Assembly: GCF_944383115.1 (NCBI RefSeq)
Contig: NZ_CALWOJ010000004.1
Span: 1 to 58,735, forward strand
Direction: 5' to 3'
DNA from: an uncultured Flavonifractor sp.
GTDB taxonomy: Bacteria; Bacillota; Clostridia; Oscillospirales; Oscillospiraceae
Length of the DNA: 58,735 bases
The notes beneath the pieces are model-generated. The model made no database searches. It was not told where the DNA came from and saw only the letters and a program-made list of their open reading frames with translations. How positions within the stretch are numbered: position 1 is the stretch's first letter; the number at the start of each line of letters is the position of its first letter. Positions 22,009-38,886 of this stretch are shown here, one piece after another. Position numbers and translations under genes: made by a program.

Positions 22009-22914
22009 TCAGAGCAGTTTGTGAAGGCGAAGCAGTTCGGCGAAAGCGTGATCCCGGAATTTGCAGACGCCTTCAATGGTGTTGCCCATATCCGGATCGC
22101 GGTTGGCAATTTCCTGATCCACGCCCTGGGCGTACAGCTCGTTGTAGGGGGAGGGTTCCTCACCGTATTTCTCCGCAATGGTGCGGAAGCCGCCATCCAC
22201 GCCAAGGCTGATGGTAAGCAGCTGGCCGGTGACCGCCATGCGCATACCGGGGCCGAACATGATAGCCTTGTCCATATCCTCCACTGAACACACGCCGTCC
22301 CGCACGCATTCCTTGGCGGCATCCAGAGCGGCCCAGGACAGACGGTTGACGATAAAGCCGTAGATCTCCTTGCGGCATACCACGGCCACCTTGCCCATGC
22401 CGGTGTAGATCTCCTTGGCCCGCTGGACCGCTTCTTCGGAGGTCTGCTCGCCGCCGCACAGCTCGATCAGGGGCAGCAGGTAGGAGGGGTTGTAGGGATG
22501 GCCTACCAGGATGGACTGGGGGTAGAGAGCGCCCTCCTGCAGTTTGGTGGGGAACAGCTTGGAAGTGGAACTACAGATAATAGCGTTGGGCCCGGTGACC
22601 TTTTGAATGGTGGCGTAGGTGGATTTTTTCAGCTCCAGCCGCTCAGGAATGCACTCCTGGATAAAGTCGGCGCCCGCCACTGCTTGTTCCAAATCGTTGG
22701 AAATTTGGCAGGCATCCAGGGCAGCGTCGGCCTGGGCGCGGGTGGCAGCGCCTGCCTCCACCAGAATATCCAGAATACTGCTGATATTTTGACGAATTTT
22801 TTCAGGGGGCACCACGTCGTACAGTACGGTATCATAGCCCTTCAGCATGGCGTTGGCAGCCAGACCGGCGCCGATCATGCCGGTGCCCACAAAAACTGCT
22901 TTGATCTTTCCCAT
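22009..22914 (-). CDS. 3-hydroxyacyl(-CoA) dehydrogenase family, carnitine-dehydrogenase-like
   Basis: The 301-residue protein has an N-terminal Rossmann site, VFVGTGMIGAGLAANAM, followed by ADFIQECIPERLELK (about residue 92) and CSSTSKLFP. GHPYNPSYLLPLIELCGG near 148 carries the catalytic His region. This last form is typical of carnitine dehydrogenase and lambda-crystallin-like enzymes that oxidise free 3-hydroxy acids, rather than of beta-oxidation HADH. It would give a 3-keto acid. It is a one-gene unit from a sigma-54 promoter at 23000-23015, divergent from the sigma-54 activator gene. A beta-keto acid cleavage enzyme in the same regulon fits this product. Confidence 0.8.
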   Translation of the reverse strand: MGKIKAVFVGTGMIGAGLAANAMLKGYDTVLYDVVPPEKIRQNISSILDILVEAGAATRAQADAALDACQISNDLEQAVAGADFIQECIPERLELKKSTYATIQKVTGPNAIICSSTSKLFPTKLQEGALYPQSILVGHPYNPSYLLPLIELCGGEQTSEEAVQRAKEIYTGMGKVAVVCRKEIYGFIVNRLSWAALDAAKECVRDGVCSVEDMDKAIMFGPGMRMAVTGQLLTISLGVDGGFRTIAEKYGEEPSPYNELYAQGVDQEIANRDPDMGNTIEGVCKFRDHAFAELLRLHKLL

Positions 22915-22999
22915 AATATCTTCCTCGTTTCTTTGTGGTGTGCAGGATCCGGACAAAGCGGAATTGCCCAGGCCGGCCATATCCTTGCTTCAAAGAAGC

Positions 23000-23015
23000 A
23001 GCAAATTTCATGCCA
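23000..23015 (-). promoter_or_regulatory. Sigma-54 promoter for the 3-hydroxyacyl dehydrogenase gene
   Basis: On the minus strand TGGCATGAAATTTGCT keeps the -24 GG and -12 GC with exactly ten bases between them. It lies about 85 bases before the start codon. Confidence 0.82.
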
Positions 23016-23063
23016 GAAATTCCGTCGGATTTGAGGCCTGGATCCGGGTAAAAGGGCGGGTAA

Positions 23064-23079
23064 GTTGCAAAACGGAAAC
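23064..23079. promoter_or_regulatory. Activator-binding dyad A1
   Basis: GTTGCAAAACGGAAAC; its reverse complement GTTTCCGTTTTGCAAC matches the dyads in front of the other sigma-54 promoters. It lies 49 bases upstream of the -24 element. Confidence 0.7.
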
Positions 23080-23105
23080 GATGATCTTGTTAAAAATGGA
23101 AGATA

Positions 23106-23121
23106 GTTTCCAAAATGCAAC
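23106..23121. promoter_or_regulatory. Activator-binding dyad A2
   Basis: GTTTCCAAAATGCAAC is an inverted copy of dyad A1, 42 bases away centre to centre (about four helical turns). Confidence 0.7.
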
Positions 23122-23267
23122 AGAGATATAGGGCAAATCCATCAAAAAAGTTGAAAAAGTTGGATGGGGAAAGTAGTCGAAATTGGAGGAAAGCTATGGT
23201 ATAATAAATCCAATTGGTATATAAGATCTTCCGATGTACGCTCAAATTCCCGAAGGAGGAAGATGTC

Positions 23268-24845
23268 ATGGATCAATATCTGTCCATTCGTGCAGTGCAG
23301 GCGATACTGCGGAATGTGATTCCCCAGGTGGAACAACCGGAACTGGCTGCTCAGTTGAGGGAAGTGGATGCCCGCTTGGAGACCTTTCACGACCGGGGCA
23401 TTGATTTCAAAGAGGTGGTGGACAATCTGGACGACAGCGTCCTGATTACCGATGCCGACGGCCTGGTGCTGTACATCAACCCTGCCTATACGCGCAATAC
23501 CGGCATCACGGAGGGGGATATCCTGAACCGTGATATCCACAGTGTGATCGGCGAGGATAAACTGTTTACCGGTGGCGCGGTTACCAGCGTGCTGGAGAGT
23601 AAAAAAAGCGCCTTCCGCCTCTCTACAACCTATAAGACGGAGGAGCCGTTGGTAGGCTATGTAGTGGGAACACCCATTCTCAAGCAGGATGGCAGTCTGC
23701 GGCAGGTGATTGCATGCAGCCGTCCCATTGTGACCCTGAACTCACTCCAGGAGGACTTTGAGGCTTTCGTCAAGGAGGTCAACGCCATTCGCCCCGGTTA
23801 CATCAGCAAAGACTCGGATAAGCACTTGTCGGAGGGAATGGTGGGAAAATACGGCTCCCTGGAGAAGATCAGCACCCTCATCGACCATGTGGCGCCCACC
23901 GACGCTTCCGTATTGATTACCGGCGAATCAGGCGTGGGCAAAGAGGTGGTGGCGGATGAGATCTATCGCCGCAGCCTGAGACGGGACAAGCCTTACGTCA
24001 AGATCAACTGTGCCTCCATTCCGGGGCATCTGTTGGAGTCGGAGCTGTTTGGCTACGAGAAAGGCGCCTTTACCGGCGCCAATGCCAAGGGCAAGATCGG
24101 CCTGTTTGAGTACGCAAACCACGGCACGCTGATGCTGGATGAGATCGGGGATATGCCGATGGATCTCCAGGTAAAGCTGCTGCGGGCCATCCAGTCCCAG
24201 GAGATTACCCGGATCGGCGGGACCAAGCCCATTAAGCTGGATATCCGCTTCCTGGCTCTTACCAATGCGGATTTGAAGAAAAAAGTGGCGGAAGGGGCGT
24301 TCCGCCAGGATCTGTATTACCGCCTCAACGTGATCCCCATGTCGGTGCCTCCGCTGCGGCAGCGGCTGGAGGACTTTGAGGCGCTGTGCGACCATTTTAT
24401 TGAGCGATTCACCAAGAAGTATAATCGTACCTTTGGCCTTACGGATTGGCAGATCGCATATATGAAGCGGTATCCGTGGCCGGGGAATATCCGGGAGCTG
24501 GAAAATGTGATGGAATACCTCATTCTGTGCAGTTCCGGCATCGGGCGCATTGCGGACGACGTGCTGCGAGGGCTGTTGAACGTGCCGGAAGAGACGCCGG
24601 TCTCCCAACTGCCTGCGGAGGAACCCTGTCAGATGGAGACCCTCGGGGAGGCGGCGCCGGAACCGCCGGCGGAGGAACTGGATTTCAATACGGCGGTAGC
24701 CGACTTTGAAAAACGCCTGCTGGAGCAGGTGCTGAGCGAGTCGTCCAATCTGCGGGAGGCAAGCCGGAAGCTGAACATCAACGCATCCACCATCAGCAGG
24801 AAGATCAAACAGTATCAGATTGAGTATGAGAATCGGAGGAGTTGA
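23268..24845 (+). CDS. Sigma-54-dependent transcriptional activator (PAS-AAA+-Fis)
   Basis: The 525-residue protein has a PAS-type sensor (about residues 55-170: DSVLITDADGLVLYINPAYT). Its AAA+ domain has Walker A GESGVGKE (about 220), the sigma-54-contacting loop GAFTGA (about 268) and Walker B GTLMLDEIGD. A C-terminal Fis-type HTH (about 485-520: NLREASRKLNINASTISRKI) completes it. It opens complexes at sigma-54 promoters in response to an unknown signal. The ATG at 23268 follows GAAGGAGGAAG. Four sigma-54 promoters and three pairs of matching dyads lie within 7.7 kb, so it very likely runs this local fermentation regulon. Confidence 0.93.
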   Translation: MDQYLSIRAVQAILRNVIPQVEQPELAAQLREVDARLETFHDRGIDFKEVVDNLDDSVLITDADGLVLYINPAYTRNTGITEGDILNRDIHSVIGEDKLFTGGAVTSVLESKKSAFRLSTTYKTEEPLVGYVVGTPILKQDGSLRQVIACSRPIVTLNSLQEDFEAFVKEVNAIRPGYISKDSDKHLSEGMVGKYGSLEKISTLIDHVAPTDASVLITGESGVGKEVVADEIYRRSLRRDKPYVKINCASIPGHLLESELFGYEKGAFTGANAKGKIGLFEYANHGTLMLDEIGDMPMDLQVKLLRAIQSQEITRIGGTKPIKLDIRFLALTNADLKKKVAEGAFRQDLYYRLNVIPMSVPPLRQRLEDFEALCDHFIERFTKKYNRTFGLTDWQIAYMKRYPWPGNIRELENVMEYLILCSSGIGRIADDVLRGLLNVPEETPVSQLPAEEPCQMETLGEAAPEPPAEELDFNTAVADFEKRLLEQVLSESSNLREASRKLNINASTISRKIKQYQIEYENRRS

Positions 24846-24892
24846 CCCATGCCTGCGGGGCAGATGGAGAGGACAGAGCTTTCCCCATGAAA

Positions 24893-24941
24893 CGCCGGCG
24901 GCCGCCGAACATCAAGTTCGACGGCCGCCGGCGCTTTTTAG
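24893..24941 (+). terminator. Terminator after the sigma-54 activator gene
   Basis: CGCCGGCGGCCG at 24893-24904 pairs with CGGCCGCCGGCG at 24922-24933, followed by CTTTTTAG. Confidence 0.9.
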
Positions 24942-25001
24942 AGAGAGGGTTGGGTTGGGGGGAGAAGGCTGAAAAATAAGAGAGGCGGTGCGCCTGCTTT
25001 T

Positions 25002-26168
25002 TCAACCGCAGGCCAATTGTAACCAGCTGAGTACGTCCTCATACCGCATGGGCCGGAAATTTCCGCCCAACGCGCCGGAACCGCCGGGCAGGGCCCGTTG
25101 CGCCAAACGTTCCACCGATACCTCGCCCAGACCGGCCTCCCGCAGAGTGACGGGCAGACCCGCGGAGCAGAGGAAGTCCTGAAAGGCCGAGATGCCGTTT
25201 TGGGCTGTCTGGATCTGGCTGGGGGAGGGCGGGATCTGCCATACCAGCGCGGAGAAATCGGCGATGGCCTCCGGCTCGTCGGTAAGCATGAATTTGCACC
25301 AGGCGGCCATCAGAATGCCCAGCGCCATGCCGTGCGGCAGTCCCAGTTCGGTGGTCAGGACATGGGAGAGCGCGTGACAGGCAAAGTCGCCTTCAAAGCC
25401 CAGCATGTCGCTGTGGGCCACGGCGGCGGCCCACATCAGCTGGCTGCGTGCGTCATAACAGTCCGGGTGGTCCAGGGTCCTGGGCAGTTCCTGTATCACA
25501 GTGCGCATGACGGCGGCGCACATCTGGTTGCGCAGGGCGCCCTGCTGGGTTTTGTGAAAATAGCGTTCAAAGGCGTGGGAGAAGAGATCCACCGCGCAGC
25601 AGGCGGTCTGCCTGGGCGGCAGGGAGAAGGTCAGCGTCGGGTCCATCAGCGCAAAACGGGGGCGGGTGAGTGGTTCCTCCAGAGCGGCCTTTTTGTGCTG
25701 CTGGTTGTGACAGAGGACCGAGATGCAGTTGACCTCGCTGGCGGTGGCGGCGGTGGTGGGGATGGCGCCGATGGGCAGGGCGGAGCGTACTTTGGATTTA
25801 CCTGAGTACAGATCCCACAGCGGGCCGCTGTACCGCCTGCCTACGCTGACGGCCTTGGCGGTGTCGATCACGCTGCCGCCGCCCAGGGCCAGGAGCAGAG
25901 AGATCTTCCTTTCCCGGGCCAGGCGACGGCCTTCCTCCGCTTTGGAGAGCAGCGCGTTTTCCTGGATACCGCCAAAGGGCGTCACAGTCAGGCCGTGGCG
26001 TTCCAGATCGGCCACGATCCGGTCCAGCAGGCCGTTGCGGCAGACCCGCTGACTGCCATAGAGGATCATGACGTTGGGGCCGTATCTGCGGGAGAATTCC
26101 CCCGCCCGGTTTTCTGCGTCCCGGCCGAAGACCACCTGGGTGGGAAAGGAAAAGGTGAAGTCTTTCAT
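25002..26168 (-). CDS. Iron-containing alcohol dehydrogenase, possibly 4-hydroxybutyrate dehydrogenase
   Basis: The 388-residue protein belongs to the Fe-ADH family. It has LALGGGSVIDTAKAVSVG near residue 95 for NAD binding. Likely iron ligands are Asp and His in DLFSHAFE (near 192), plus His residues in CHALSHVLTTELGLPHGMAL (near 260-275). In a cluster with 4-hydroxybutyryl-CoA dehydratase, interconversion of 4-hydroxybutyrate and succinate semialdehyde is a reasonable guess, but the family is broad. It begins 14 bases after the thiolase stop and shares its sigma-54 transcript. Its ribosome binding site is weak, so coupling to the thiolase gene is likely. Confidence 0.8.
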   Translation of the reverse strand: MKDFTFSFPTQVVFGRDAENRAGEFSRRYGPNVMILYGSQRVCRNGLLDRIVADLERHGLTVTPFGGIQENALLSKAEEGRRLARERKISLLLALGGGSVIDTAKAVSVGRRYSGPLWDLYSGKSKVRSALPIGAIPTTAATASEVNCISVLCHNQQHKKAALEEPLTRPRFALMDPTLTFSLPPRQTACCAVDLFSHAFERYFHKTQQGALRNQMCAAVMRTVIQELPRTLDHPDCYDARSQLMWAAAVAHSDMLGFEGDFACHALSHVLTTELGLPHGMALGILMAAWCKFMLTDEPEAIADFSALVWQIPPSPSQIQTAQNGISAFQDFLCSAGLPVTLREAGLGEVSVERLAQRALPGGSGALGGNFRPMRYEDVLSWLQLACG

Positions 26169-26182
26169 GGGCGCTGCCCGGG

Positions 26183-27361
26183 TCAGACTCGTTCGATGAG
26201 GACCGCGGTGCCCATGCCGCCCCCGGCGCAGAGGGTGGCCAGGCCATAACGGCCGCCCCTGCGTTTGAGTTCGTAGAGCAGCGTCACCACCAGCCGGCTG
26301 CCGGTGGCGCCTACAGGGTGGCCCAGAGAGATGCCGCCGCCGTTGACGTTGAGCTTGTCCTCGTCGATCCCCAGGGTGCGCTGGCAGGCCACACACTGGG
26401 CGGCAAAGGCCTCGTTGATTTCGAAGAGGTCGATGTCGCCTACGGTGAGGTCGGCTTTCTCCAGGGTTTTCTGGGCGGCGCTGATGGGGCCGATGCCCAT
26501 CAGGTCGGGGGAGACGCCGGTGGTGGCGGTGGCCACCACCCGGGCCAGGATGGGCAGACCCAGGCTGCGGGCGTAGTCCTCGTCCATCAGCAGTACGCCG
26601 GAGGCGGCGTCATTCATGCCGGAGGAGTTGCCGGCGGTGACCCGGCCGTCGGCCTTGAAGGTGGGCTTCAGTTTAGCCAGCTTCTCCAGGGTGGTGTCCC
26701 GGCGCACATGCTCGTCGGTGGTCACTACCACGTCACCCTTCTTGCCGTGAACGGTGATGGGGATGATCTCCTCTTCAAACTTGCCCCCGTCAATGGCGGC
26801 GGCTGCCCTCTGCTGGGAGCGGAGGGCGTAGTTGTCCATGTCCTCCCGGGTAACGCCGTAGGCGTCGGCCACATTCTCGGCGGTAATGCCCATGGCGGGC
26901 CCCACGCCCAGGTTGGTGAGGGAGTCCCACATGGAGTCCCGCAGTTCCATATGGCCGTATTTCTTGCCGTAGCGGGCGTCAAAGACCATGAAGGGGGCGG
27001 CGCTCATACAGTCGGCCCCGCCGGCCATGATGCACTTGGCCTCCCCGGCCATGATCTGATAAAAGCCCAGCTGGATGGAGGACATGGAGGAGGTGCAGTT
27101 GCGGTGAATGGTAATGCCGGGTACCGTGTCGGGCAGACCGGCCTTGACGGCGGCTACCCGGGCCAGATTGTTCTCCAGATAGGTGCGCTGGTAGTTGCAG
27201 CCCCAGATCACGTCGTCAATCTGCGCGGGATCTGCGCCGGAACGCTGGACCAGAGCCTGCATCACCGGAATGGACAGGTCCAGGGCCGTAAGGGTTTTGA
27301 ACTGGCCGCCGATGGTGCCGATGGGGGTGCGGCAGGCGGCAATGATTGCAACATGTTTCAT
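26183..27361 (-). CDS. Thiolase family protein (acetyl-CoA acetyltransferase-like)
   Basis: The 392-residue protein shows the thiolase signature blocks: the nucleophilic Cys in HRNCTSSMSSIQLG (near residue 88), NEAFAAQCVACQ (near 345), GGGISLGHPVGATGSRL with the catalytic His, and CAGGGMGTA with the second Cys. The first block (NCTSSM) departs from the common VCGSG form, which hints at a substrate other than plain acetoacetyl-CoA. The start at 27361 has GAGGAG seven bases upstream. A sigma-54 promoter at 27409-27424 drives it, divergent from the keto-acid cleavage operon. Confidence 0.9.
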   Translation of the reverse strand: MKHVAIIAACRTPIGTIGGQFKTLTALDLSIPVMQALVQRSGADPAQIDDVIWGCNYQRTYLENNLARVAAVKAGLPDTVPGITIHRNCTSSMSSIQLGFYQIMAGEAKCIMAGGADCMSAAPFMVFDARYGKKYGHMELRDSMWDSLTNLGVGPAMGITAENVADAYGVTREDMDNYALRSQQRAAAAIDGGKFEEEIIPITVHGKKGDVVVTTDEHVRRDTTLEKLAKLKPTFKADGRVTAGNSSGMNDAASGVLLMDEDYARSLGLPILARVVATATTGVSPDLMGIGPISAAQKTLEKADLTVGDIDLFEINEAFAAQCVACQRTLGIDEDKLNVNGGGISLGHPVGATGSRLVVTLLYELKRRGGRYGLATLCAGGGMGTAVLIERV

Positions 27362-27408
27362 AATGAGACTCCTCTCTGAGTGGTGAAATTGGTTCTGAAA
27401 GACACATA

Positions 27409-27424
27409 TGCAATCGGTGTGCCA
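27409..27424 (-). promoter_or_regulatory. Sigma-54 promoter for thiolase and Fe-ADH
   Basis: On the minus strand TGGCACACCGATTGCA has GG and GC spaced by ten bases, close to the full consensus. It lies about 48 bases before the thiolase start. Confidence 0.88.
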
Positions 27425-27462
27425 AAAAATATGCCATGGAATGCCGGGCTGGGATGCCGGAA

Positions 27463-27478
27463 GCTGCAATTTTGCAAC
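27463..27478. promoter_or_regulatory. Activator-binding dyad B1
   Basis: GCTGCAATTTTGCAAC is nearly the ideal palindrome GTTGCA-N4-TGCAAC. It lies 38 bases upstream of the minus-strand promoter. Confidence 0.68.
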
Positions 27479-27506
27479 AGATGGAAGGGGGAAATGGGCA
27501 GGCTCT

Positions 27507-27522
27507 GTTTCCGGATTGCAAC
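27507..27522. promoter_or_regulatory. Activator-binding dyad B2
   Basis: GTTTCCGGATTGCAAC matches dyad A2 except in the spacer. It is 44 bases from B1 and 48 bases upstream of the plus-strand promoter. Confidence 0.7.
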
Positions 27523-27570
27523 GCAAGCTTCGAAAGGGGAGAAAACCACCGCAAAATCGGGAGACAGATT

Positions 27571-27586
27571 TGGCATGGAATTTGCA
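27571..27586 (+). promoter_or_regulatory. Sigma-54 promoter for the keto-acid cleavage operon
   Basis: TGGCATGGAATTTGCA has the -24 GG and -12 GC ten bases apart. It lies about 68 bases before the start codon at 27655. Confidence 0.86.
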
Positions 27587-27654
27587 AGTTAAATTCTGTG
27601 GTACAAGGCCCCCGATTTTGCAAACGGGCCTCAGCTTTGAAGGAGGAACGGAAC

Positions 27655-28500
27655 ATGAGTCAGGAAAAGACCATTATTACGGTAGCCACCACCGGCGCGT
27701 GGCCCAAGAAAGAAAATAACCCCAACGTCCCCATGACCCCCGCCGAGATCGCCGAGGATATCTACGCCTGTTGGAAGGCGGGCGCGGCCATTGCCCATAT
27801 GCACATGCGGGACGATGAGGGCAACGGCACAATGGATAAGGATAAATTCCGCCAGACGGTGGAACTGCTGCGGGGTAACCACCCTGACTGCGACATTATT
27901 TTAAATATGACCACTTCGGGCGCCGCCTTTTTCCCCAATGAGGAATGCCGCTACGAGCATATCGTGGAGTTGCATCCGGAAATGGCGTCCTACGACTGCG
28001 GCTCCATGAACTGGATGCACTCCGGCCTCTTTCTCAATCCACCGGCCTTTTTGGAGAAGCTGGGCAAGATCATGCAGGACAACCACATCAAGCCGGAGAT
28101 CGAGGCCTTTGATCCCGGCATGATCGCCAACGCCCAATACTACTTAAAAAAAGGCGTGCTGAAAGCGCCCCTGCATTTCCAGTTCTGCATGGGCTGCGCC
28201 AACGGCATTCCGGGTACCATGAAAAACCTGATCTTTATGAAGGAAACGATGGAGTCTCTGTGCCCCGGCTCCACCTGGAGCTGTTTCGGCGTGGGCCACT
28301 CCGCCATGACTATGCTGTACGGCGCGGTGGCTCTGGGCGGACATATCCGGGTGGGTATGGAGGACAATGTGATGTACGCCAAGGGCGTGCTGGCAGAGAG
28401 CAATGTGCAGTTCGTGGAACGGGCCCGCCGGGTCATTGAGGAGTTCGGCAAGAAGGCGGCCATCCCCGACGAGGCCCGTGAGATCCTGGGCCTGAAGTAA
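27655..28500 (+). CDS. Beta-keto acid cleavage enzyme (BKACE, DUF849 family)
   Basis: The 281-residue protein has TVATTGAWP near the N-terminus, the metal-binding HMHMRDDEG near residue 46, and the later SWSCFGVGH-like segment (TWSCFGVGHSAM near 210) plus GGHIRVGMEDN near 230. All are typical of BKACE proteins. These enzymes condense a 3-keto acid with acetyl-CoA and split it into acetoacetate and a new acyl-CoA; the founding member, Kce, works in lysine fermentation. Paired with a 3-hydroxy acid dehydrogenase and 4-hydroxybutyryl-CoA dehydratase, it could make an acyl-CoA without a separate CoA-transferase. GGAGGAAC precedes the ATG. Confidence 0.9.
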   Translation: MSQEKTIITVATTGAWPKKENNPNVPMTPAEIAEDIYACWKAGAAIAHMHMRDDEGNGTMDKDKFRQTVELLRGNHPDCDIILNMTTSGAAFFPNEECRYEHIVELHPEMASYDCGSMNWMHSGLFLNPPAFLEKLGKIMQDNHIKPEIEAFDPGMIANAQYYLKKGVLKAPLHFQFCMGCANGIPGTMKNLIFMKETMESLCPGSTWSCFGVGHSAMTMLYGAVALGGHIRVGMEDNVMYAKGVLAESNVQFVERARRVIEEFGKKAAIPDEAREILGLK

Positions 28501-28519
28501 GAGAAAGGAAGGGAACAAC

Positions 28520-29971
28520 ATGGCACTGATGACAGGGGAACAGTACATTGAGAGCATACGGAAGATGAAGATGCAGGTCTATATGTTCGGCAAGAAGGTG
28601 GAAAGCCCTGTGGACGATCCCATCCTCCGCCCCTCGCTGAACAGCGTGCGCATGACCTACGACCTGGCCCAGAAGCCGGAGTACCAGGATCTGATGACCG
28701 CCACCTCCAACCTGACCGGCCAGCGGGTCAACCGCTTCACCCACATCCACCAGTCCGCTCAGGACCTGGTGAAGAAGGTGAAGATGCAGCGGCTGCTGGG
28801 CCAGCAGACCGCCGCCTGCTTCCAGCGGTGCGTGGGCATGGACGCCTTCAACGCGGTGTACTCCACCACCTATGAGATCGACCAGAAGTATGGCACAAGC
28901 TACCACGAGAACTTTAAGAAGTTTGCCGCCTACGTCCAGGAGAATGACCTGACGGTGGACGGGGCCATGACCGACCCCAAGGGGGACCGGTCCAAGGCGC
29001 CCCATGAACAGGAGGATCCCGATCTGTTCCTGCGGGTGGTGGAGCGCCGCTCCGACGGCATTGTGGTGCGTGGCGCCAAGGCTCACCAGACCGGCGCGCT
29101 GAACAGCCATGAGATCATCATCATGCCCACCATCTCCATGGGACCGGAGGACAAGGACTACGCCGTGTCTTTCGCCGTGCCCATGGACGCCGAGGGTATC
29201 TTCATGATCATCGGCCGGCAGAGCTGCGATACCCGGAAGCTGGAGGGCAGCGAGCTGGACGTGGGCAACGCCGAGTTTGGCGGCGTGGAGGCCCTGGTGG
29301 TGTTCGACGACGTGTTTGTGCCCAACGACCGTATCTTCATGTGCGGTGAGACCGAGTTCGCCGGTATGCTGGTGGAGCGGTTTGCCGGCTATCACCGCCA
29401 GAGCTACGGCGGGTGCAAGGTAGGCGTGGGCGATGTGCTGATCGGCGCGGCGGCGGTAGCCGCCGACTACAACGGCTGCGCCAAGGCCTCCCACATCAAG
29501 GACAAGCTCATTGAGATGACCCACCTGAACGAGACGCTGTATTGCTGCGGCATCGCCTGCTCCGCCGAGGGCCATGCCACCGCCAGCGGCAACTATATCA
29601 TCGATCTGCTGCTGGCCAACGTGTGCAAGCAGAACGTGACCCGGTTCCCCTATGAGATTGCCCGGCTGGCCGAGGATATTGCCGGCGGCGTGGTGGTCAC
29701 CGCCCCCGCTGAGGCGGATCTGCGGGATCCCAAGCTGGGGCCCTATGTGGAGAAATACTTCAAGGCGGCCCCCGGGGTGTCGGTGGAGAACCGCTTCCGC
29801 ATCCTGCGCCTCATTGAGAACCTGACCCTGGGCACTGCTGCGGTGGGCTACCGCACCGAGTCCCTCCACGGCGCCGGTTCTCCCCAGGCCCAGCGCATCA
29901 TGATCGCCCGCCAGGGCAATCTGCCCATGAAGAAAGAATTGGCCAAGAAGATCGCCCATGTGAAGGAGTGA
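28520..29971 (+). CDS. abfD: 4-hydroxybutyryl-CoA dehydratase / vinylacetyl-CoA isomerase
   Basis: The 483-residue flavoprotein closely follows the known clostridial AbfD pattern. Cluster ligands are in place: Cys in CFQRCVGMDAFNA (near residues 99 and 103), and the His and Cys of HRQSYGGCKVG (near 292 and 299). GDVLIGAAAVAADYNG and YRTESLHGAGSPQAQR are also characteristic. The enzyme uses a [4Fe-4S] cluster and FAD to convert 4-hydroxybutyryl-CoA to crotonyl-CoA by a radical route. It is very oxygen sensitive, which supports an anaerobic host. It follows the BKACE gene by 19 bases and precedes a NifU-like gene. Confidence 0.93.
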   Translation: MALMTGEQYIESIRKMKMQVYMFGKKVESPVDDPILRPSLNSVRMTYDLAQKPEYQDLMTATSNLTGQRVNRFTHIHQSAQDLVKKVKMQRLLGQQTAACFQRCVGMDAFNAVYSTTYEIDQKYGTSYHENFKKFAAYVQENDLTVDGAMTDPKGDRSKAPHEQEDPDLFLRVVERRSDGIVVRGAKAHQTGALNSHEIIIMPTISMGPEDKDYAVSFAVPMDAEGIFMIIGRQSCDTRKLEGSELDVGNAEFGGVEALVVFDDVFVPNDRIFMCGETEFAGMLVERFAGYHRQSYGGCKVGVGDVLIGAAAVAADYNGCAKASHIKDKLIEMTHLNETLYCCGIACSAEGHATASGNYIIDLLLANVCKQNVTRFPYEIARLAEDIAGGVVVTAPAEADLRDPKLGPYVEKYFKAAPGVSVENRFRILRLIENLTLGTAAVGYRTESLHGAGSPQAQRIMIARQGNLPMKKELAKKIAHVKE

Positions 29972-29976
29972 CCAAT

Positions 29977-30285
29977 ATGACCCAGTGCAGCAGCGTACCG
30001 CTGGAACAGATTGAAGAGGTGCTTGACCGGGAGGTGCGTCCCAAGTTGGCCCTTCACGGCGGGAACATCCGCAGCCTGGACTGCCGGGACGGCCTGTACC
30101 GCTTCCAGCTGACCGGTCAATGCGCCGGCTGCCCCTCCGCTATGTTGACCACGGAGAGTTTGATCCGCACCACCCTGTTAGAAGCATTGCCCCAGCTGAA
30201 AAATGTGGTGCTGGTGCGCGGCGTGAATCAGGAACTGCTGGATCAGGCAAAAGCCATCCTGCGGGGTGAGCGCCCATGCGGATAG
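29977..30285 (+). CDS. NifU-like Fe-S scaffold domain protein
   Basis: The 102-residue protein is a NifU C-terminal domain: VRPKLALHGGNIRSLD near residue 18 and GQCAGCPSAMLTTESLI near 46, where the CxxC can hold a [4Fe-4S] cluster. The ATG at 29977 was chosen with AAGGAG at 29963-29968; a GTG at 29968 overlapping abfD is also in frame. Its place straight after the 4-hydroxybutyryl-CoA dehydratase suggests it supplies or repairs the cluster of that enzyme. It overlaps the next small Cys-rich gene by ten bases. Confidence 0.85.
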   Translation: MTQCSSVPLEQIEEVLDREVRPKLALHGGNIRSLDCRDGLYRFQLTGQCAGCPSAMLTTESLIRTTLLEALPQLKNVVLVRGVNQELLDQAKAILRGERPCG

Positions 30286-30524
30286 GCGTCAAGTATTGCG
30301 GAGGCTGCAACCCGCGCTATGATCGGACTGCTCTGGTGGCCCGGCTGAAACAGAAACGGCCGGACGACTGGGTGGAACCGGCAAGCCCCGGCGTTTGCTA
30401 TGATGAACTCTGGGTGGCATGCGGCTGCCCGGTACAATGCGCCGATCTGGAAGGACTGGAAGGGCGCACCGTGCTGCGCCTGTGGGAGCTGTGTTGCGAT
30501 TCTGCAAAATGTTGCGAAAATTAG
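30276..30524 (+). CDS. Small Cys-rich protein (CGGCNPRYDR type)
   Basis: I cannot assign a function to this 82-residue protein. It begins MRIGVKYCGGCNPRYDR, a motif I recall from small proteins of anaerobes. It carries nine cysteines, including CGGC, CGC and a terminal CC...CC pattern, so metal or thiol chemistry is likely. It overlaps the NifU-like gene and is last in the operon that starts with the BKACE gene. One of the activator dyads of the next promoter (30493-30508) lies inside its last codons. Confidence 0.7.
   Translation: MRIGVKYCGGCNPRYDRTALVARLKQKRPDDWVEPASPGVCYDELWVACGCPVQCADLEGLEGRTVLRLWELCCDSAKCCEN
30493..30508. promoter_or_regulatory. Activator-binding dyad C1, inside a coding region
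   Basis: GTTGCGATTCTGCAAA differs at two positions from GTTGCA-N4-TGCAAC. It lies within the 3' end of the small Cys-rich gene. Confidence 0.6.
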
Positions 30525-30532
30525 GAAGGATT

Positions 30533-30548
30533 ATTTCCATCCTGCAAC
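30533..30548. promoter_or_regulatory. Activator-binding dyad C2
   Basis: ATTTCCATCCTGCAAC matches the GTTTCC-N4-TGCAAC form at all but one fixed position. It is 40 bases from C1 and 87 bases upstream of the sigma-54 promoter. Confidence 0.68.
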
Positions 30549-30635
30549 AGAAATCACTGGGACCTGGCCTGCGACAAAGCAACAAACGGGCCTGTGGCCT
30601 TGAAAAAGAAAGAATAGAAAGGCAATATCCAAATT

Positions 30636-30651
30636 TGGCACGATACTTGCT
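30636..30651 (+). promoter_or_regulatory. Sigma-54 promoter for cyclase copy 1 and the TRAP genes
   Basis: TGGCACGATACTTGCT fits the sigma-54 consensus almost perfectly, with GG-N10-GC. It lies 68 bases before the start codon at 30719. Confidence 0.92.
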
Positions 30652-30718
30652 CTTTTTACAGGGCAAGAGAATTCTTCTGCAGAGGGATTTCAAATCAGAG
30701 AAAAAGGAGAGATCATTT

Positions 30719-31537
30719 ATGAGCAAGACCGTACTGGTAGACCTGTCTCATCCCTTTGGCCGCGGCAATCCCCTGTGGCCCTCCAACGGAGACTTCCATA
30801 TCGACCGCGTGCAGCACATGCCCATGCACTACCGCCTGCTGCAGACCTTTAACGACTTCCATATGCACAACTCCACCCACGCCGACTCCCCGTCCCATGT
30901 GATTCCCGAAGGGGCCTTCACCCATGAGCTGCCCCTGGAGAACTACTACGGCCCCGCCGTGTGTCTGGACATCCCCAAGAAGCACTGGGAACTGATTACG
31001 GTGGAGGACATTGAGAAGGCGGCCGCCAAGGTGGAAGGCGGCATCCAGGAAGGGGACTGGGTCCTGATCTGCACCGGCATGAACAAGCGCTGGGGCGAGA
31101 ACGACGACTACTTCATGTACTCTCCCGGCATGTCCATTGAGGGCGCCCACTGGCTGGTGGATCACAAGGTGAAGGGCGTTGGTTTCGACCTGCAGGCCCT
31201 GGACCACATTCTGTACACCTACGCGGCCCAGCACGGCCCCGGGCCCTATGTACCCCGGATCGTGGACGAGTACAAGAAGGAGTTCGGCCACGAGCCTCTG
31301 GAGGACTTCCCGGAGTGGGAGCCCGTCCACACCATCCTGCTGAGCAACAACGTGATGGGCATTGAGAACCTGGGCGGCGACATTGAGAAGGTGAAGGGCC
31401 AGCGGTTCACGTTCTGCGCCTTCCCGCTGCGCTGGTACATGGGCGACGGCACCATCGTCCGGGCCGTGGCCATGATCGACGAGGACAAGATCAACAAGGA
31501 CGTGCCCGACCGCGTCTACAAGTACGGCGTGTATTGA
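30719..31537 (+). CDS. Cyclase/arylformamidase-family metal hydrolase, copy 1
   Basis: The 272-residue protein belongs to the cyclase family (kynurenine formamidase-like). The metal-binding HMHNSTHADSPSH near residue 48 follows the HxxTHxDxPxH pattern. VDLSHPFGRGNP at the start and GWVLICTGM-like GDWVLICTGMN near 113 also fit. Members hydrolyse small amides, formamides or cyclic compounds. The frame is open upstream to 30419, but AAAAAGGAGAG and the sigma-54 promoter fix the start at 30719. A second gene at 34721-35539 encodes the same protein exactly. The substrate is unknown; linkage to a TRAP importer suggests it acts on the imported compound. Confidence 0.88.
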   Translation: MSKTVLVDLSHPFGRGNPLWPSNGDFHIDRVQHMPMHYRLLQTFNDFHMHNSTHADSPSHVIPEGAFTHELPLENYYGPAVCLDIPKKHWELITVEDIEKAAAKVEGGIQEGDWVLICTGMNKRWGENDDYFMYSPGMSIEGAHWLVDHKVKGVGFDLQALDHILYTYAAQHGPGPYVPRIVDEYKKEFGHEPLEDFPEWEPVHTILLSNNVMGIENLGGDIEKVKGQRFTFCAFPLRWYMGDGTIVRAVAMIDEDKINKDVPDRVYKYGVY

Positions 31538-31588: not shown

Positions 31589-32695
31589 ATGAAGAAAAGA
31601 ATTGCCTGTTCTGTGTTGAGCGCGCTGCTTTTGGGCCTGACGCTGAGCGCGTGCGGGGAGACCGGCGGAGTGACCGGCGAGATCCATGAATCCGGCTATC
31701 CGAAGATGGAACTGATCGTTTCCGCCATTGACTCCCATGACAAGACCTCCGCTCATGAGATTGAGATCTTTACCGAATTGGTCACAGAGCGTTCTGGAGG
31801 CGCCATTACCTTCAAGGTGTTTTACGACAACCTGCTGGGAAAGGCTACCGACAATCTGAACACCCTGAGTTCCGGCATTGCCGACCTGGGCACCGTCTGT
31901 ACGCTGTATACGCCCAGTAACCTGCCTCTGTCCCAGATCACCTACTGCATCCCCTTTGCGCCCAGTGATCCTACCCTGGCCGCCGAGCTGATGTACAAGG
32001 TGTCGGAGGAGTACCCGGAGTTTTATGAGGAATATGAGAAAAACAACGTGGTCTGCCTGGGCTGGAAGGGCAACGAGCCCTATAAGCTGTACTCCAAGGC
32101 GCCCATTACGGAACTGTCTCAGATGTCCGGAATGAAGCTGACTCTGGGCGGCGTGTATTATATCCCCTGGTTCCAGTCCATCAATGCCGTGCCGGTGAAT
32201 GCGCCTGCCGCCGACCTGTATCAGACCATCAAGACCGGCGTAGCCTCCGGCTCCTTCGTGTACGACAGTATCTACTGTAACTACAAGCTCTACGAAGTGG
32301 AGGACTACTGCCTGGAGGTGGGCCTGGGCGCCCGCAACAACAACGTCCTCTGCTTCAACAAGAATATGTGGGATTCCTTTGACGAGAAGACCCAGCAGCT
32401 GTTCCAGGAGTGCGCCGACGAAGCTATGGCCCAGTTCCAGGAGTGGCAGCAGAGCGAGATGGACGGCTGGGAGCAGGAGATGCTGGACAACGGCGTCACC
32501 TTCAATACGCTCTCGGATGAAGCCAAGGAGGAGTGGGCTGCAACGGCCCTGGCTTACCAGGATACCCTTCAGATGTGGATCGACGATGTTACCGCACTGG
32601 GGTATGACGGCGCGGGTATCATGTCTGCCTATCTGAAAGCCGGTGAGGAACTGGGGTACGAATGGCACTTTGATACGACTCCCTATATTCAATAA
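31589..32695 (+). CDS. dctP: TRAP transporter substrate-binding lipoprotein DctP
   Basis: The 368-residue protein has a lipoprotein signal ending in LTLSAC (about residues 17-22), so it is anchored outside the membrane. The mature part has the TRAP solute-binding order: AHEIEIFTELVTERSGGAITF, LSSGIADLGTVC, and a long C-terminal helical region. The residues around MKLTLGGVYYIPWFQ and CNYKLYEVEDYC fall where binding residues usually lie. It delivers an unknown, probably carboxylated, ligand to the DctQM channel. GGGAGGG precedes the ATG. It sits between the cyclase gene and dctQ on one transcript. Confidence 0.93.
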   Translation: MKKRIACSVLSALLLGLTLSACGETGGVTGEIHESGYPKMELIVSAIDSHDKTSAHEIEIFTELVTERSGGAITFKVFYDNLLGKATDNLNTLSSGIADLGTVCTLYTPSNLPLSQITYCIPFAPSDPTLAAELMYKVSEEYPEFYEEYEKNNVVCLGWKGNEPYKLYSKAPITELSQMSGMKLTLGGVYYIPWFQSINAVPVNAPAADLYQTIKTGVASGSFVYDSIYCNYKLYEVEDYCLEVGLGARNNNVLCFNKNMWDSFDEKTQQLFQECADEAMAQFQEWQQSEMDGWEQEMLDNGVTFNTLSDEAKEEWAATALAYQDTLQMWIDDVTALGYDGAGIMSAYLKAGEELGYEWHFDTTPYIQ

Positions 32696-32759: not shown

Positions 32760-33371
32760 ATGTCAAAATCTACAAAGATAGCGGCTTTTTATGAGAAGCC
32801 GGAACTTTTAATGAAATTTTTTGGCTGGGTCTCCGCCGGCGTGATGCTCTTTAACATGGTGCTGATCTGCTGCGACGTATTTATGCGCTATGTGTTCAAC
32901 TCCCCCATTCAGGGCGCCACGGAGATCGTGACCATGCTGATGGCGTGGGTGGCTTACGCCGGCATGGCGTATACCCTGCTGAAGGGCCAGCACATGCAGC
33001 TGGGCGCTATCTATGACAAGCTGCAAGGCCGCACCAAGCATGTGATCAGCTTTGTGATCTATCTGCTGGCCACCATCCTGTTTGTTGTGATGATCAAGGC
33101 CTCCTGGGATCAGTTCTGGGCGTCCTGGCTGATCAAGGAAAAATCTGTGGCTGCCGTTACGGTGTATGTATTTATCGGAAAGTTTGGCGCTTTCCTGGGC
33201 TGGCTGCTTCTCGCCATCCAGGGTGCCTTTATGACGGTGTACTGCGCAGTCGGCATCGCCATGCCCAACCGTGTGGACCATATCCTGATCAACTCCGAGC
33301 TTCCCACCGAGGCGGAACTGAGCGCCTTCAGCGGGGAAGATGAGAAGAAGAAAAAGGAGGGTGGCAACTGA
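32760..33371 (+). CDS. dctQ: TRAP transporter small permease DctQ
   Basis: The 203-residue protein has four hydrophobic segments and the DctQ pattern FMRYVFNSPIQGATEIVTMLMAWVAYAGMAYTLLKGQHM around residues 40-80. The start at 32760 has GAGGAGGAAC just before it; an in-frame ATG at 32721 lacks a site. The C-terminus is charged (EDEKKKKEGGN) and cytoplasmic. The stop codon shares a base with the dctM start, so the two permease subunits are translationally coupled. Confidence 0.92.
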   Translation: MSKSTKIAAFYEKPELLMKFFGWVSAGVMLFNMVLICCDVFMRYVFNSPIQGATEIVTMLMAWVAYAGMAYTLLKGQHMQLGAIYDKLQGRTKHVISFVIYLLATILFVVMIKASWDQFWASWLIKEKSVAAVTVYVFIGKFGAFLGWLLLAIQGAFMTVYCAVGIAMPNRVDHILINSELPTEAELSAFSGEDEKKKKEGGN

Positions 33372-34681
33372 TGGAAGGCGGAATCATTTTAGCACTGGTC
33401 GGTATCGTTGCCTTGATTATTCTGGTGCTGATGGGCGTACATATTGCAGTTGCCCTGGGTACCGTCGGATTCTTCGGCCTGGTAGCCTGCCTGAATTTCC
33501 CCAAGGCGGTGGCAATGGTAGGCATCCAGGCGTACAGCAACATCGCCACCTTCGATTACGCGGTCATCCCGCTGTTTATCCTGATGGGAATGTTGGCCAC
33601 GGGAATCGGAATCAGTACGGAATGCTATGATACGCTGGCCAAGTGGCTGGGCCGTATCCCCGGTGGCCTGGGCGTGGCGACCACGCTGGGCTGTACCGCA
33701 TTCGGTACCCTGAACGGCTCCGCGCTGGTGACCGGCTCCGTGTTTGCCAAGATCGCTGCCCCGGAAATGCGCCGGTACGGTTATGACACCAACCTGACTT
33801 ACGGCATGATCGCCGCGTCGGGCAACATCGGACAGTTCATTCCCCCCAGCATCCTCATTGTTATCTTCGGCGCGCTGTCCGGCGACTCCATCGGCCGCCT
33901 GCTGATGGCGGCTATTGCCCCCGGCCTGGCTCTGGCCATCGGTTTCTCCCTGTTTACCGTAATTACCGCCATTGTAAAACCCAATCTCTTCCCCCGTGTA
34001 GAGCAGCACTTTACCTGGCATGAGAAACTGGTCTCCCTGAAGAACCTGATTCCCATCGCCATTGTGGCCGTAGTCATCATCGGCGGCATCTTCTTCGGTA
34101 TCTGCAGCTCTGCCGAGGCCGGCGCCATCGGCTGCCTGGTGTTCTTCATCATGGGCTTCATCAAGCGCACCCCCTTCAAGAAGATCTGGGGCGCCATCAT
34201 GGAGACGGTGGAGAACATGACCATGCTGTTCCTGATCCTGGCCTGCTCCGGTATGTTTGCCAAGTTCATGACGGTGTCCGGCCTGGCCCAGGCGCTGACC
34301 AATATGGTAACCGAGGCTCAGCTCAGCCCCGTGGTATTCATGATCGCCGCTGTGGTGGTGTTCCTGATCCTGGGCTGCTTCCTGGACGCCTACTCCAGCA
34401 TCGCCCTTACCATCCCCGTGTTCTATCCCGCCGCTGTTGCTCTGGGCATTGACCCCATGCAGTTCGACCTGGTGGCCATCCTTGCCCTCCACATGGGCGG
34501 CCTGACTCCTCCCGTGGGCCTGTGCGTCTACTCCGTCAAGGCGGTGGCGCCCAAAAATGTGGATGTCATGGGTATCTTCAAGGGTTCCATGCCATATCTG
34601 GCAGTTATGATCCTGATCACATTGCTCTTCATCTTTATTCCCGGCCTGTCTACCTTTATCCCCAACGCCATGTTCTCGTAA
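33371..34681 (+). CDS. dctM: TRAP transporter large permease DctM
   Basis: The 436-residue protein has around twelve hydrophobic helices and typical DctM sequences: FGLVACLNFPKAVAM near the N-terminus, GSALVTGSVFAKIAAPEM, GNIGQFIPPSILIVIFG near residue 155, and MGGLTPPVGLCVYSVKAVAP near 378. It forms the ion-coupled import channel with DctQ. Together with DctP it makes a complete TRAP system. The system is enclosed by two identical cyclase genes. There is no terminator between dctM and the second cyclase gene, only a 39-base gap, so that copy is also on this transcript. Confidence 0.94.
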   Translation: MEGGIILALVGIVALIILVLMGVHIAVALGTVGFFGLVACLNFPKAVAMVGIQAYSNIATFDYAVIPLFILMGMLATGIGISTECYDTLAKWLGRIPGGLGVATTLGCTAFGTLNGSALVTGSVFAKIAAPEMRRYGYDTNLTYGMIAASGNIGQFIPPSILIVIFGALSGDSIGRLLMAAIAPGLALAIGFSLFTVITAIVKPNLFPRVEQHFTWHEKLVSLKNLIPIAIVAVVIIGGIFFGICSSAEAGAIGCLVFFIMGFIKRTPFKKIWGAIMETVENMTMLFLILACSGMFAKFMTVSGLAQALTNMVTEAQLSPVVFMIAAVVVFLILGCFLDAYSSIALTIPVFYPAAVALGIDPMQFDLVAILALHMGGLTPPVGLCVYSVKAVAPKNVDVMGIFKGSMPYLAVMILITLLFIFIPGLSTFIPNAMFS

Positions 34682-34720: not shown

Positions 34721-35539
34721 ATGAGCAAGACCGTACTGGTAGACCTGTCCCATCCCTTTGGCCGCGGCAATCCCCTGTGGCCCTCCAACGGAGACTTCCA
34801 TATCGACCGCGTGCAGCACATGCCCATGCACTACCGCCTGCTGCAGACCTTTAACGACTTCCATATGCACAACTCCACCCACGCCGACTCCCCGTCCCAT
34901 GTGATTCCCGAAGGGGCCTTCACCCATGAGCTGCCCCTGGAGAACTACTACGGCCCCGCCGTGTGTCTGGACATCCCCAAGAAGCACTGGGAACTGATTA
35001 CGGTGGAGGACATTGAGAAGGCGGCCGCCAAGGTGGAAGGCGGCATCCAGGAAGGGGACTGGGTCCTGATCTGCACCGGCATGAACAAGCGCTGGGGCGA
35101 GAACGACGACTACTTCATGTACTCTCCCGGCATGTCCATTGAGGGCGCCCACTGGCTGGTGGATCACAAGGTGAAGGGCGTTGGTTTCGACCTGCAGGCC
35201 CTGGACCACATTCTGTACACCTACGCGGCCCAGCACGGCCCCGGGCCCTATGTACCCCGGATCGTGGACGAGTACAAGAAGGAGTTCGGCCACGAGCCTC
35301 TGGAGGACTTCCCGGAGTGGGAGCCCGTCCACACCATCCTGCTGAGCAACAACGTGATGGGCATTGAGAACCTGGGCGGCGACATTGAGAAGGTGAAGGG
35401 CCAGCGGTTCACGTTCTGCGCCTTCCCGCTGCGCTGGTACATGGGCGACGGCACCATCGTCCGGGCCGTGGCCATGATCGACGAGGACAAGATCAACAAG
35501 GACGTGCCCGACCGCGTCTACAAGTACGGCGTGTATTGA
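34721..35539 (+). CDS. Cyclase/arylformamidase-family metal hydrolase, copy 2
   Basis: It encodes the same 272 residues as the gene at 30719-31537, with the same metal motif HMHNSTHADSPSH. The DNA differs by one synonymous base. The upstream sequence is different: AGAAAGGAG at 34703-34711 is the ribosome binding site and no sigma-54 promoter is present. It is therefore expressed, if at all, by readthrough from the TRAP genes. A strong hairpin follows at 35567-35600. The near-identity implies a recent duplication or ongoing gene conversion. Confidence 0.88.
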   Translation: MSKTVLVDLSHPFGRGNPLWPSNGDFHIDRVQHMPMHYRLLQTFNDFHMHNSTHADSPSHVIPEGAFTHELPLENYYGPAVCLDIPKKHWELITVEDIEKAAAKVEGGIQEGDWVLICTGMNKRWGENDDYFMYSPGMSIEGAHWLVDHKVKGVGFDLQALDHILYTYAAQHGPGPYVPRIVDEYKKEFGHEPLEDFPEWEPVHTILLSNNVMGIENLGGDIEKVKGQRFTFCAFPLRWYMGDGTIVRAVAMIDEDKINKDVPDRVYKYGVY

Positions 35540-35566: not shown

Positions 35567-35600
35567 AAAGCCCCCCTGATGGATTCATCAGGGGGGCTTT
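35567..35600 (+). terminator. Hairpin after cyclase copy 2, joined to the broken regulator gene
   Basis: AAAGCCCCCCTGATG at 35567-35581 pairs exactly with CATCAGGGGGGCTTT at 35586-35600 around GATT. The T tract is cut short (TTTCTATCC), and regulator coding sequence starts at once. Confidence 0.82.
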
Positions 35601-36550
35601 CTATCCTGCTTACCGACATTAAGATGCCCCGGATCGACGGTCTGGAGCTGCTTCAGGAACTTTCAGAGCGGGGCGTGTCACCCACCACCATTATTTTCAG
35701 CGGCTTTTCCGATTTCCACTATGCCCAGCGGGCGATCCGCTACGGGGTGCTGAACTATCTGCTCAAGCCCATCCGTATGGGGGAACTGACCGAGACCCTG
35801 CGCCGGGCGGCGGACAGCCTGCGCCAGGAGCGGGGGCCGGAACCTCTGGACGCCGAGGAATACGCCCGGTTCCGGACGGAGTGCAGCGCCGAGGCGGAGG
35901 AGCTGACCCGGGAACTGGCCCGGCAGATCTGTCGGGGGGACAGCGGCGCGGTACAAAAACTGTGCGGGGAAATCCAGGCGTTTTTCCAGCAGCGGGGATA
36001 CAGCGCGGCGGTATTCCGGAAGTTTGCCTTCCAGTGCGTCTATACCCTTGTGGGAGAGGTCAACCAGTTTACCGGGGCGGAGACCGCTCTGCTGGAGGAT
36101 ACGGACCGGCTGGCGCTGCTGTCGGTGGCCAGGACCATCCAGGACGCGTCGGCCCTGCTCACCGCCTGCGCCGATGATCTGTGCGCCTATGTCTATGAGC
36201 TGCGCCGATCAGGGAAACGCCGTATCATTGGGGATGTACTGACCATCCTGCAGCACCGCTATGCCGATGAAAATCTCAGCCTGAACACGCTGGCCGATCA
36301 GTTGGGCGTGACCCCCAACTACCTCAGCGCCCTCTTCCGCCGGGAGATGGGACAGACCTTTTCCACCTACCTGGAAAACTTCCGGATCGAGCGGGCCAAG
36401 GAACTGCTGCGGGACGTGCGCCATAAGGTCTATGAGGTGGCCTCGGCGGTGGGCTATGGAGACGCCAGGCACTTTGGCAAGGTGTTTAAGGCCCATACGG
36501 GCCGGACGCCGCTGGAGTTCCGGAACATGGTGCCGGAGCATGAGGGGTGA
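35579..36550 (+). pseudogene. 5'-truncated AraC-type response regulator
   Basis: The open frame codes 323 residues, but the homologous part begins with ILLTDIKMPRIDGLELL, the phosphoacceptor strand of a receiver domain that normally lies near residue 50. The first strand, the acidic pair and helix 1 are missing. The only upstream ATG (35579) lies in the stem of a terminator and has no ribosome binding site. The rest is intact: a receiver remainder with FSGFSDFHYAQRAI and YLLKPI, a linker, and an AraC HTH at about residues 220-318 (LADQLGVTPNYLSALFRREMG). It is of the YesN type that pairs with a sensor kinase; none is in the window. It is probably inactive. Confidence 0.75.
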
Positions 36551-37928: not shown

Positions 37929-37945
37929 TTTTCATAAGGCTCGAA

Positions 37946-37981
37946 GGGGCAAGGCGGTGACCGCACTGCCTTGCCCTTTTT
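37946..37981 (+). terminator. Intercistronic terminator-like hairpin after the binding-protein gene
   Basis: GGGCAAGGC at 37947-37955 pairs with GCCTTGCCC at 37968-37976, followed by five T. It probably lets only part of the transcription reach the permease genes, raising the ratio of binding protein to channel. Confidence 0.82.
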
Positions 37982-38021
37982 GACCCTTTTTCAGCCTACT
38001 TTACGCAAAGGAGTGACGAAA

Positions 38022-38885: not shown

Positions 38886-38886
38886 T

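Follow-up and report, generated by a model that had tools for sequence, protein, structure and literature searches.

A predicted sigma-54 regulon that joins ring-cleavage enzyme families to an AbfD-type dehydratase in an uncultured Flavonifractor

Two described systems come closest to the locus discussed here. The XanR sigma-54 regulon of Clostridium comprises the genes abfD-nifU-hyp-ach-golB, as listed in Table 1 of PMC6615313. The phloroglucinol degradation cluster of Clostridium scatologenes encodes PGR, DPGC, TfD, and TAL (PMC10470551). Here, we describe a locus from an uncultured Flavonifractor sp. that resembles both in part. It lies on contig NZ_CALWOJ010000004.1 (assembly GCF_944383115.1), which was analyzed over its whole length of 58,735 bases. 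We refer to this stretch as “the window”; it is contig C4 of a 2,414,415-base (2.41-Mb), 89%-complete genome. The locus comprises four sigma-54 promoter sites, one sigma-54 activator gene, and genes for a cyclase, a 3HCDH-family dehydrogenase, a thiolase, an iron-containing alcohol dehydrogenase (Fe-ADH), a BKACE, an AbfD-type dehydratase, and a TRAP transporter (Table 1).

Like the XanR regulon as tabulated in PMC6615313, the locus has abfD-nifU-hyp under predicted sigma-54 control. It differs from that regulon in having no CoA-transferase gene (ach) and in its additional genes for BKACE, thiolase, cyclase, 3HCDH, and TRAP proteins. Among 12 stretches drawn from nine genomes that carry the window-type regulon (in eight of these genomes, the stretch includes abfD), 0/12 had a CoA-transferase. 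A first-pass annotation, made from the sequence alone, knew of no described regulon of this composition. For the abfD module that is too broad, since its sigma-54 control is already published; the pairing with ring-cleavage enzymes, i.e., with a cyclase, a BKACE, and a dehydrogenase, is not in Table 1 of PMC6615313. No paper announcing the regulon or a valerolactone gene set was found in the openly licensed PMC literature, among the matches listed, and the accessible part of PMC12940152, a survey of flavonoid enzymes, has no occurrence of “valerolactone” or “dehydratase”.

The likeness to the C. scatologenes cluster (PMC10470551) lies in the cyclase, the 3HCDH-family dehydrogenase, the BKACE with Trp16, and the thiolase. 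The regulon differs from that cluster in having no PGR, in its additional AbfD module and sigma-54 control, and in its cyclase, which is 36% identical to DPGC of the genus and has Ser in place of Tyr22. The locus would connect a conserved sigma-54 regulon with a predicted anaerobic ring-cleavage pathway that is distinct from the known phloroglucinol genes and exists beside them, and a role in processing the side chain is proposed for a radical dehydratase familiar from 4-hydroxybutyrate metabolism. The function served is perhaps the breakdown of a plant polyphenol fragment by a relative of gut Flavonifractor.

Sigma-54 promoters, activator, and shared palindrome

According to the first-pass annotation, one activator and four promoters of GG-N10-GC layout, each 48–90 bases before a start codon, make up a local sigma-54 regulon. 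The coordinates and strands of all four sites are as it gave them, and all four precede start codons, at measured distances of 85, 47, 68, and 67 bases in coordinate order (i.e., 47–85 bases). The bare layout is present at every site but is uninformative alone, with 1097 matches in the window. The informative pattern is the full sigma-54 consensus, TGGCAY-N5-TTGCW, which includes the −24 GG and −12 GC elements. It occurs exactly four times in the window, always upstream of a start codon, and allowing one mismatch adds no further site; in 500 dinucleotide shuffles of the window, the mean was 0.156 and the maximum 2. A genome scan of the kind that the annotation had suggested, run with the full consensus, returned eight exact sites, as against none for a reversed control pattern. 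Four are in the window, one lies by an activator gene on C3, two flank an activator gene on C41, and one, on C10, falls within an open reading frame. The annotation would have given up the regulon had rpoN been absent from the genome; the gene is present as a single copy, on C65 (E = 1.8e-57).

The activator carries a Walker A motif at residue 219, GAFTGA at residue 266, and a helix-turn-helix (HTH), LNINASTISRKIKQY, at residue 502. As the annotation had claimed, it is the only one in the window: its gene has the sole Sigma54_activat match on the contig. Of the matches elsewhere in the genome, two score high (217 and 126 bits) and five are weak (20–33 bits). PrdR is the top NCBIfam match to the activator, yet the score is far below the cut-off (364 vs 795), and we rejected this identity. 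The activator gene may have its own sigma-A-like promoter, a weak call given that such matches are about as common as in shuffles (8 vs a mean of 6.3).

A candidate activator palindrome, TGTTGC-N6-GCAACA, was first spotted by eye in the window and tested afterwards. It lies upstream of 4/4 window promoters. A search of 34 upstream stretches, each of 230 bases, with up to two mismatches allowed gave 49 matches; with the spacer set to 3–5 or 7–10 bases it gave 0–10, and 20 letter shuffles give a mean of 0.3. Counted by promoter, the palindrome is present at 26/26 in five genomes of the genus (that of the window, G022, G118, G271, and L018 = G701), at 4/4 sigma-54 sites in G690, and at 4/4 in L019 and L021, the L019 site being hand-picked and having a promoter mismatch. 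It is found at 0/4 sigma-54 sites elsewhere in this genome and at 0/8 sites of loci with ~40% identical activators. Random stretches contain it in 21 of 2000 cases outside the regulon and in 114 of 2000 within loci that include the regulon. In an alignment of the divergent thiolase/BKACE region from five genomes, the blocks that stand out as conserved are both promoters, two palindromes, and the ribosome sites. Gene order varies among relatives, yet promoters and palindromes stay with their genes.

Judging from these sites, it is very probable that one sigma-54 activator binds palindromes at the four −24/−12 promoters and switches on four operons together, much as the annotation had proposed. 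The PAS-AAA+-Fis HTH protein would bind one or two palindromes that begin 55–144 bases upstream of each promoter. Two points weigh against this. In L020, 0/4 sigma-54 sites have the palindrome despite an activator with an identical recognition helix, an unexplained exception. In addition, the counts are partly non-independent, because the motif was defined with the help of the window sites and a palindrome can be common to two divergent promoters; it is the relatives that carry the weight of this evidence.

Enzyme families and the phloroglucinol comparison

By family assignment, four regulon enzymes (cyclase, 3HCDH, BKACE, and thiolase) match the published phloroglucinol ring-cleavage families one by one. 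In CsTAL, Trp16 occupies the position of Glu14 in lysine KCE; the window BKACE has Trp16 aligned with KCE Glu14, as in CsTAL, and shares 84.6% identity with TAL from the G118 phloroglucinol cluster. Lysine KCE is its best NCBIfam model, but the score is below the cut-off (296 vs 382) and the Glu-to-Trp change speaks against that assignment; the genus TAL scores much the same on the model (299). CsDPGC has residues Trp20 and Tyr22, of which the window cyclase keeps Trp20 and replaces Tyr22 with Ser. Five aligned window-type cyclases have Trp and Ser, as against Trp and Tyr in three DPGCs of the genus. The exchange of Tyr22 for Ser might make room for a ring substituent.

Ordinary phloroglucinol genes stand elsewhere in these genomes. 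C105 of this genome has in a row what appears by eye to be the end of a PGR-like gene, a 3HCDH-family gene, a cyclase gene, and a BKACE gene, the cyclase being 36% and the BKACE 86% identical to their window counterparts. Fuller clusters are present in G022, G118, G182, G232 (cut by the contig end), and G688; the short-chain dehydrogenase/reductase (SDR) of the G182 cluster scores 498.6 bits against 5g4k, a phloroglucinol reductase structure. The stretches with these clusters, including that of C105, have no exact sigma-54 site, and the palindrome is not near the clusters of C105, G022, and G118, the three in which it was sought. Because the ordinary genes stand elsewhere without sigma-54 sites, we regard the window set as a paralogue rather than the known cluster.

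Related arrangements occur in other genomes. In relatives (L162:1623-3184, L165:9380-10933, and L221:5478-7033), a DUF362 protein and a ~90-residue protein form a further sigma-54 operon of the regulon. DUF362 as the ring reductase of the window was rejected, with only a 27% match in the window genome and 25% in G118. In G698 (L223:3931-11741), a phloroglucinol-like cluster has two cyclases, an SDR, a BKACE, a TfD-like enzyme, and a thiolase, with two additional genes that by eye resemble B12-dependent mutase subunits; this cluster suggests versions for different side chains. In other genera (L112, L113, L114, and L119), an activator (39–41% identical) lies beside a sigma-54 site, a TAL (76–90%), and a TfD (76–86%), so some TAL-TfD sets may be sigma-54-controlled as well.

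The [4Fe-4S] cluster of 4-hydroxybutyryl-CoA dehydratase is held by three Cys and one His. AbfD of the window has this ligand pattern (C100, C104, H292, and C299), within the motifs CFQRC at 100 and YHRQSYGGC at 291, and with 821 bits is a close homologue of 1u8v, the 4-hydroxybutyryl-CoA dehydratase of Clostridium aminobutyricum. Unlike that enzyme, it is set among ring-cleavage genes and has no CoA-transferase partner. At E ≤ 1e-150, abfD matches occur in 21 of 391 genomes of the class, this one included; 14-kb stretches were compared from 16 of the 20 others, and 14/16 of these loci have a CoA-transferase of the acetyl-CoA hydrolase/transferase family. For this genome, the search returned just a 24-bit match. 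Because neither the regulon stretches nor the genome has a good CoA-transferase candidate, the CoA-thioester substrate of AbfD probably comes from another enzyme, of which the thiolase is the simplest source. The 82-residue CGGCN protein has no Pfam or NCBIfam match and recurs next to abfD and nifU in other Clostridia; it is possibly an iron-sulfur helper for AbfD.

Proposed pathway and its alternatives

We consider the chances about even that the regulon encodes a paralogous pathway for cleaving the ring of a C-substituted phloroglucinol; this substrate would enter through TRAP here and through MFS transporters in relatives. In the compared stretches of the other seven genomes with the regulon, no dctP match was seen; TRAP genes are in the operon here and in G118. 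In the proposed pathway, the cyclase would open a reduced 1,3,5-trioxygenated ring, which for a 2-substituted dihydrophloroglucinol would give R-CH2-CO-CH2-CH(OH)-CH2-COOH. The 3HCDH-family enzyme would oxidize this 3-hydroxy-5-oxo acid, the TAL-like BKACE would split off acetoacetate with acetyl-CoA, and the thiolase would release the side chain as an acyl-CoA, R-CH2-CO-SCoA. Where the side chain makes this product a 4-hydroxyacyl-CoA, AbfD would dehydrate it, providing an electron sink. With a catechin-derived diphenylpropan-2-ol, the product would be 4-hydroxy-5-arylvaleryl-CoA, which is such a compound. Binding, co-regulation, reactions, and substrate are predictions here; the sites, palindromes, gene families, diagnostic residues, and lack of a CoA-transferase partner were observed.

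The annotation had treated the controlled genes as one pathway, which is reasonable to infer for the four enzymes of phloroglucinol cluster families; Fe-ADH has no assigned step. That gap is one of several points that weigh against the proposed pathway. No ring reductase (PGR) was recognized among the regulon genes. The 3HCDH-family dehydrogenase is only 27% identical to TfD of the genus phloroglucinol cluster, and the cyclase only 36% to DPGC, with the Tyr22 exchange described above. The gene content of the regulon differs among relatives: no BKACE was recognized in the stretches from L019 and L020, and the L021 enzyme (50% identical) carries Val at the Trp16 position. The absence of BKACE from the L019 and L020 stretches lowered our confidence in the pathway slightly, from just above even to even, and raised that in the alternatives a little. 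In G690, the regulon is otherwise present but has no abfD at the locus, to which the search was confined, and abfD is absent from the L019 stretch, so AbfD is not essential to the gene set.

The AbfD module could instead mark an ordinary XanR-type regulon for conversion of 4-hydroxybutyrate to butyrate, with AbfD acting on 4-hydroxybutyryl-CoA, Fe-ADH serving as 4-hydroxybutyrate dehydrogenase, and the neighboring genes only loosely attached. The abfD-nifU-hyp order in Table 1 of PMC6615313 and the very close match of AbfD to 1u8v agree with this, as does the setting of abfD in other Clostridia, where it adjoins sigma-54 sites or local activators, often with a similar palindrome. In the other abfD stretches, 10/13 sigma-54 sites have the palindrome within 230 bases, as against 43 of 2000 random stretches, although one palindrome is common to two of these ten sites and the L207 site is not before abfD. 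The activators beside these genes are 33–38% identical to that of the window, and the six inspected, XanR itself not among them, have another recognition helix; in view of the similar palindromes, window-type and XanR-type regulons may share ancestry, though these helices differ. What makes the 4-hydroxybutyrate explanation unlikely is that CoA-transferase is missing from all the window-type stretches and has no good match in the genome, that the remaining enzymes are of ring-cleavage families and include the TAL residue, and that G690 retains them without abfD at the locus.

Two further explanations divide the evidence differently. If the regulon were a second, sigma-54-controlled set for plain phloroglucinol, with AbfD in an unrelated side reaction, the high identity of BKACE to the genus TAL and the agreement of enzyme families with the published pathway would be expected; the low identity of the cyclase to DPGC and its replaced Tyr22 would not, C105 already has a cyclase-BKACE pair behind a PGR-like gene end, and AbfD is left without a role. 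We consider this quite unlikely. A pathway for another β-keto acid or a lactone, in which no aromatic ring takes part and the cyclase works as a lactonase or amidase, seems similarly improbable. In its favor, arylformamidase and isatin hydrolase are related to the cyclase, the top models for the 3HCDH protein, none of which reach the cut-off, include carnitine dehydrogenases, and the L019 and L020 stretches lack a recognized BKACE. Against such a pathway stand the combination of four families, which equals that of the phloroglucinol cluster, Trp16 in the BKACE, and the TfD-like enzyme at the corresponding loci L019, L020, and L021, where the dehydrogenase is 45–49% identical to TfD.

Within the ring-cleavage explanation, a catechin-derived substrate fits the gene set but is unproven. 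According to a 2021 review (PMC8276758), diphenylpropan-2-ols are used by strains of Flavonifractor plautii on a route to valerolactones, and the whole gene set for catechin catabolism is still to be identified; the present hypothesis gives that gene question a testable form. In such a pathway, 1-aryl-3-(2,4,6-trihydroxyphenyl)propan-2-ol would be reduced and opened, and BKACE and thiolase would shorten it to 4-hydroxy-5-arylvaleryl-CoA. This product would lactonize to the aryl-γ-valerolactone or be dehydrated by AbfD en route to the arylvalerate. That this regulon supplies the genes still missing for catechin A-ring cleavage by gut bacteria, with AbfD in a new substrate role, is in our view doubtful. 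Window-type cyclases (at least 93% identical) are present in 7/20 genomes of the genus and in 0/4 of those of at least 3.7 Mb (G182, G688, G691, and G692). F. plautii has a genome of about this size and may be among these four; if it is, their lack of a window-type cyclase counts against the catechin reading.

Operon extents and neighboring genes

The annotation had counted a cyclase and TRAP genes among those controlled, and its region ended at 31537. The last operon extends further, as cyclase-dctP-dctQ-dctM-cyclase copy 2, reaching 35539 and followed by a stem-loop. G118 has the identical cyclase-TRAP-cyclase order.

Table 1. Features of the locus and their positions in the window
Feature	Position	Strand	Basis or remark
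3HCDH-family protein, 301 aa, proposed 3-hydroxy-5-oxo-acid dehydrogenase	22009-22914	-	Pfam 3HCDH_N/3HCDH
Sigma-54 promoter, 3HCDH-family gene	23000-23015	-	TGGCATGAAATTTGCT, exact consensus; 85 bases to start codon
Weaker candidate activator palindrome	23063-23080		3 mismatches
Candidate activator palindrome TGTTGC-N6-GCAACA	23105-23122		2 mismatches
Sigma-A-like promoter before activator gene	23177-23205	+	10/12 matches, TG before second hexamer; weak
Sigma-54 activator, 525 aa	23268-24845	+	Pfam: PAS, Sigma54_activat (AAA+), Fis-type HTH
Iron-containing alcohol dehydrogenase, 388 aa	25002-26168	-	Pfam Fe-ADH
Thiolase, 392 aa	26183-27361	-	Pfam; TIGR01930 above cut-off
Sigma-54 promoter, thiolase and Fe-ADH	27409-27424	-	TGGCACACCGATTGCA, exact consensus; block conserved in 5 genomes
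Candidate activator palindrome, common to two divergent promoters	27462-27479		Motif match, 5-genome alignment
Second candidate palindrome, common to two divergent promoters	27506-27523		Motif match, 5-genome alignment
Sigma-54 promoter, BKACE-abfD-nifU-hyp	27571-27586	+	TGGCATGGAATTTGCA, exact consensus; block conserved in 5-genome alignment
BKACE, 281 aa	27655-28500	+	Pfam; 84.6% to genus TAL, Trp16
AbfD-type 4-hydroxyacyl-CoA dehydratase, 483 aa	28520-29971	+	821 bits to 1u8v; ligand motifs
NifU-like protein, 102 aa	29977-30285	+	Pfam
Small protein rich in cysteine, 82 aa, with a CGGCN motif; abfD/nifU partner	30276-30524	+	Similar proteins adjoin other abfD genes
Candidate activator palindrome	30492-30509		1 mismatch; within 3' end of 82-aa gene
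Candidate activator palindrome	30532-30549		2 mismatches
Sigma-54 promoter, cyclase-TRAP-cyclase operon	30636-30651	+	TGGCACGATACTTGCT, exact consensus
Cyclase copy 1 (PF04199), DPGC-like ring-opening hydrolase	30719-31537	+	Pfam
TRAP solute-binding protein DctP	31589-32695	+	Profile match
TRAP small membrane subunit DctQ	32760-33371	+	Profile match
TRAP large membrane subunit DctM	33371-34681	+	Profile match
Cyclase copy 2	34721-35539	+	One base different from copy 1
Stem-loop, likely operon end	35567-35600	+	Read directly from sequence; terminator scan did not list it

The identity of the two cyclase copies in the window ends at the gene boundaries. The G118 pair has 21 differences within the pair and 79–81 relative to the window copies, and the pattern of duplicates in the two genomes looks like gene conversion. 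An assembly error is made unlikely by the fact that G118 has its own two copies in the same order. At the protein level, the window cyclase does not differ from G118 copy 1 or from the cyclases of G022 and L022, despite 54–81 silent differences from the window.

Downstream, the open frame of a response-regulator/AraC-type gene (35579-36550) begins inside the stem-loop. Its receiver domain is without its first part, matching from profile position 44, and the gene would be a truncated gene or a deletion junction. Further on, 41952-43787 encodes a protein of 611 residues whose C-terminal half contains an ATC_hydrolase domain; the gene is preceded by what appears by eye to be a branched-chain amino-acid-type ABC transporter set (36726-41437).

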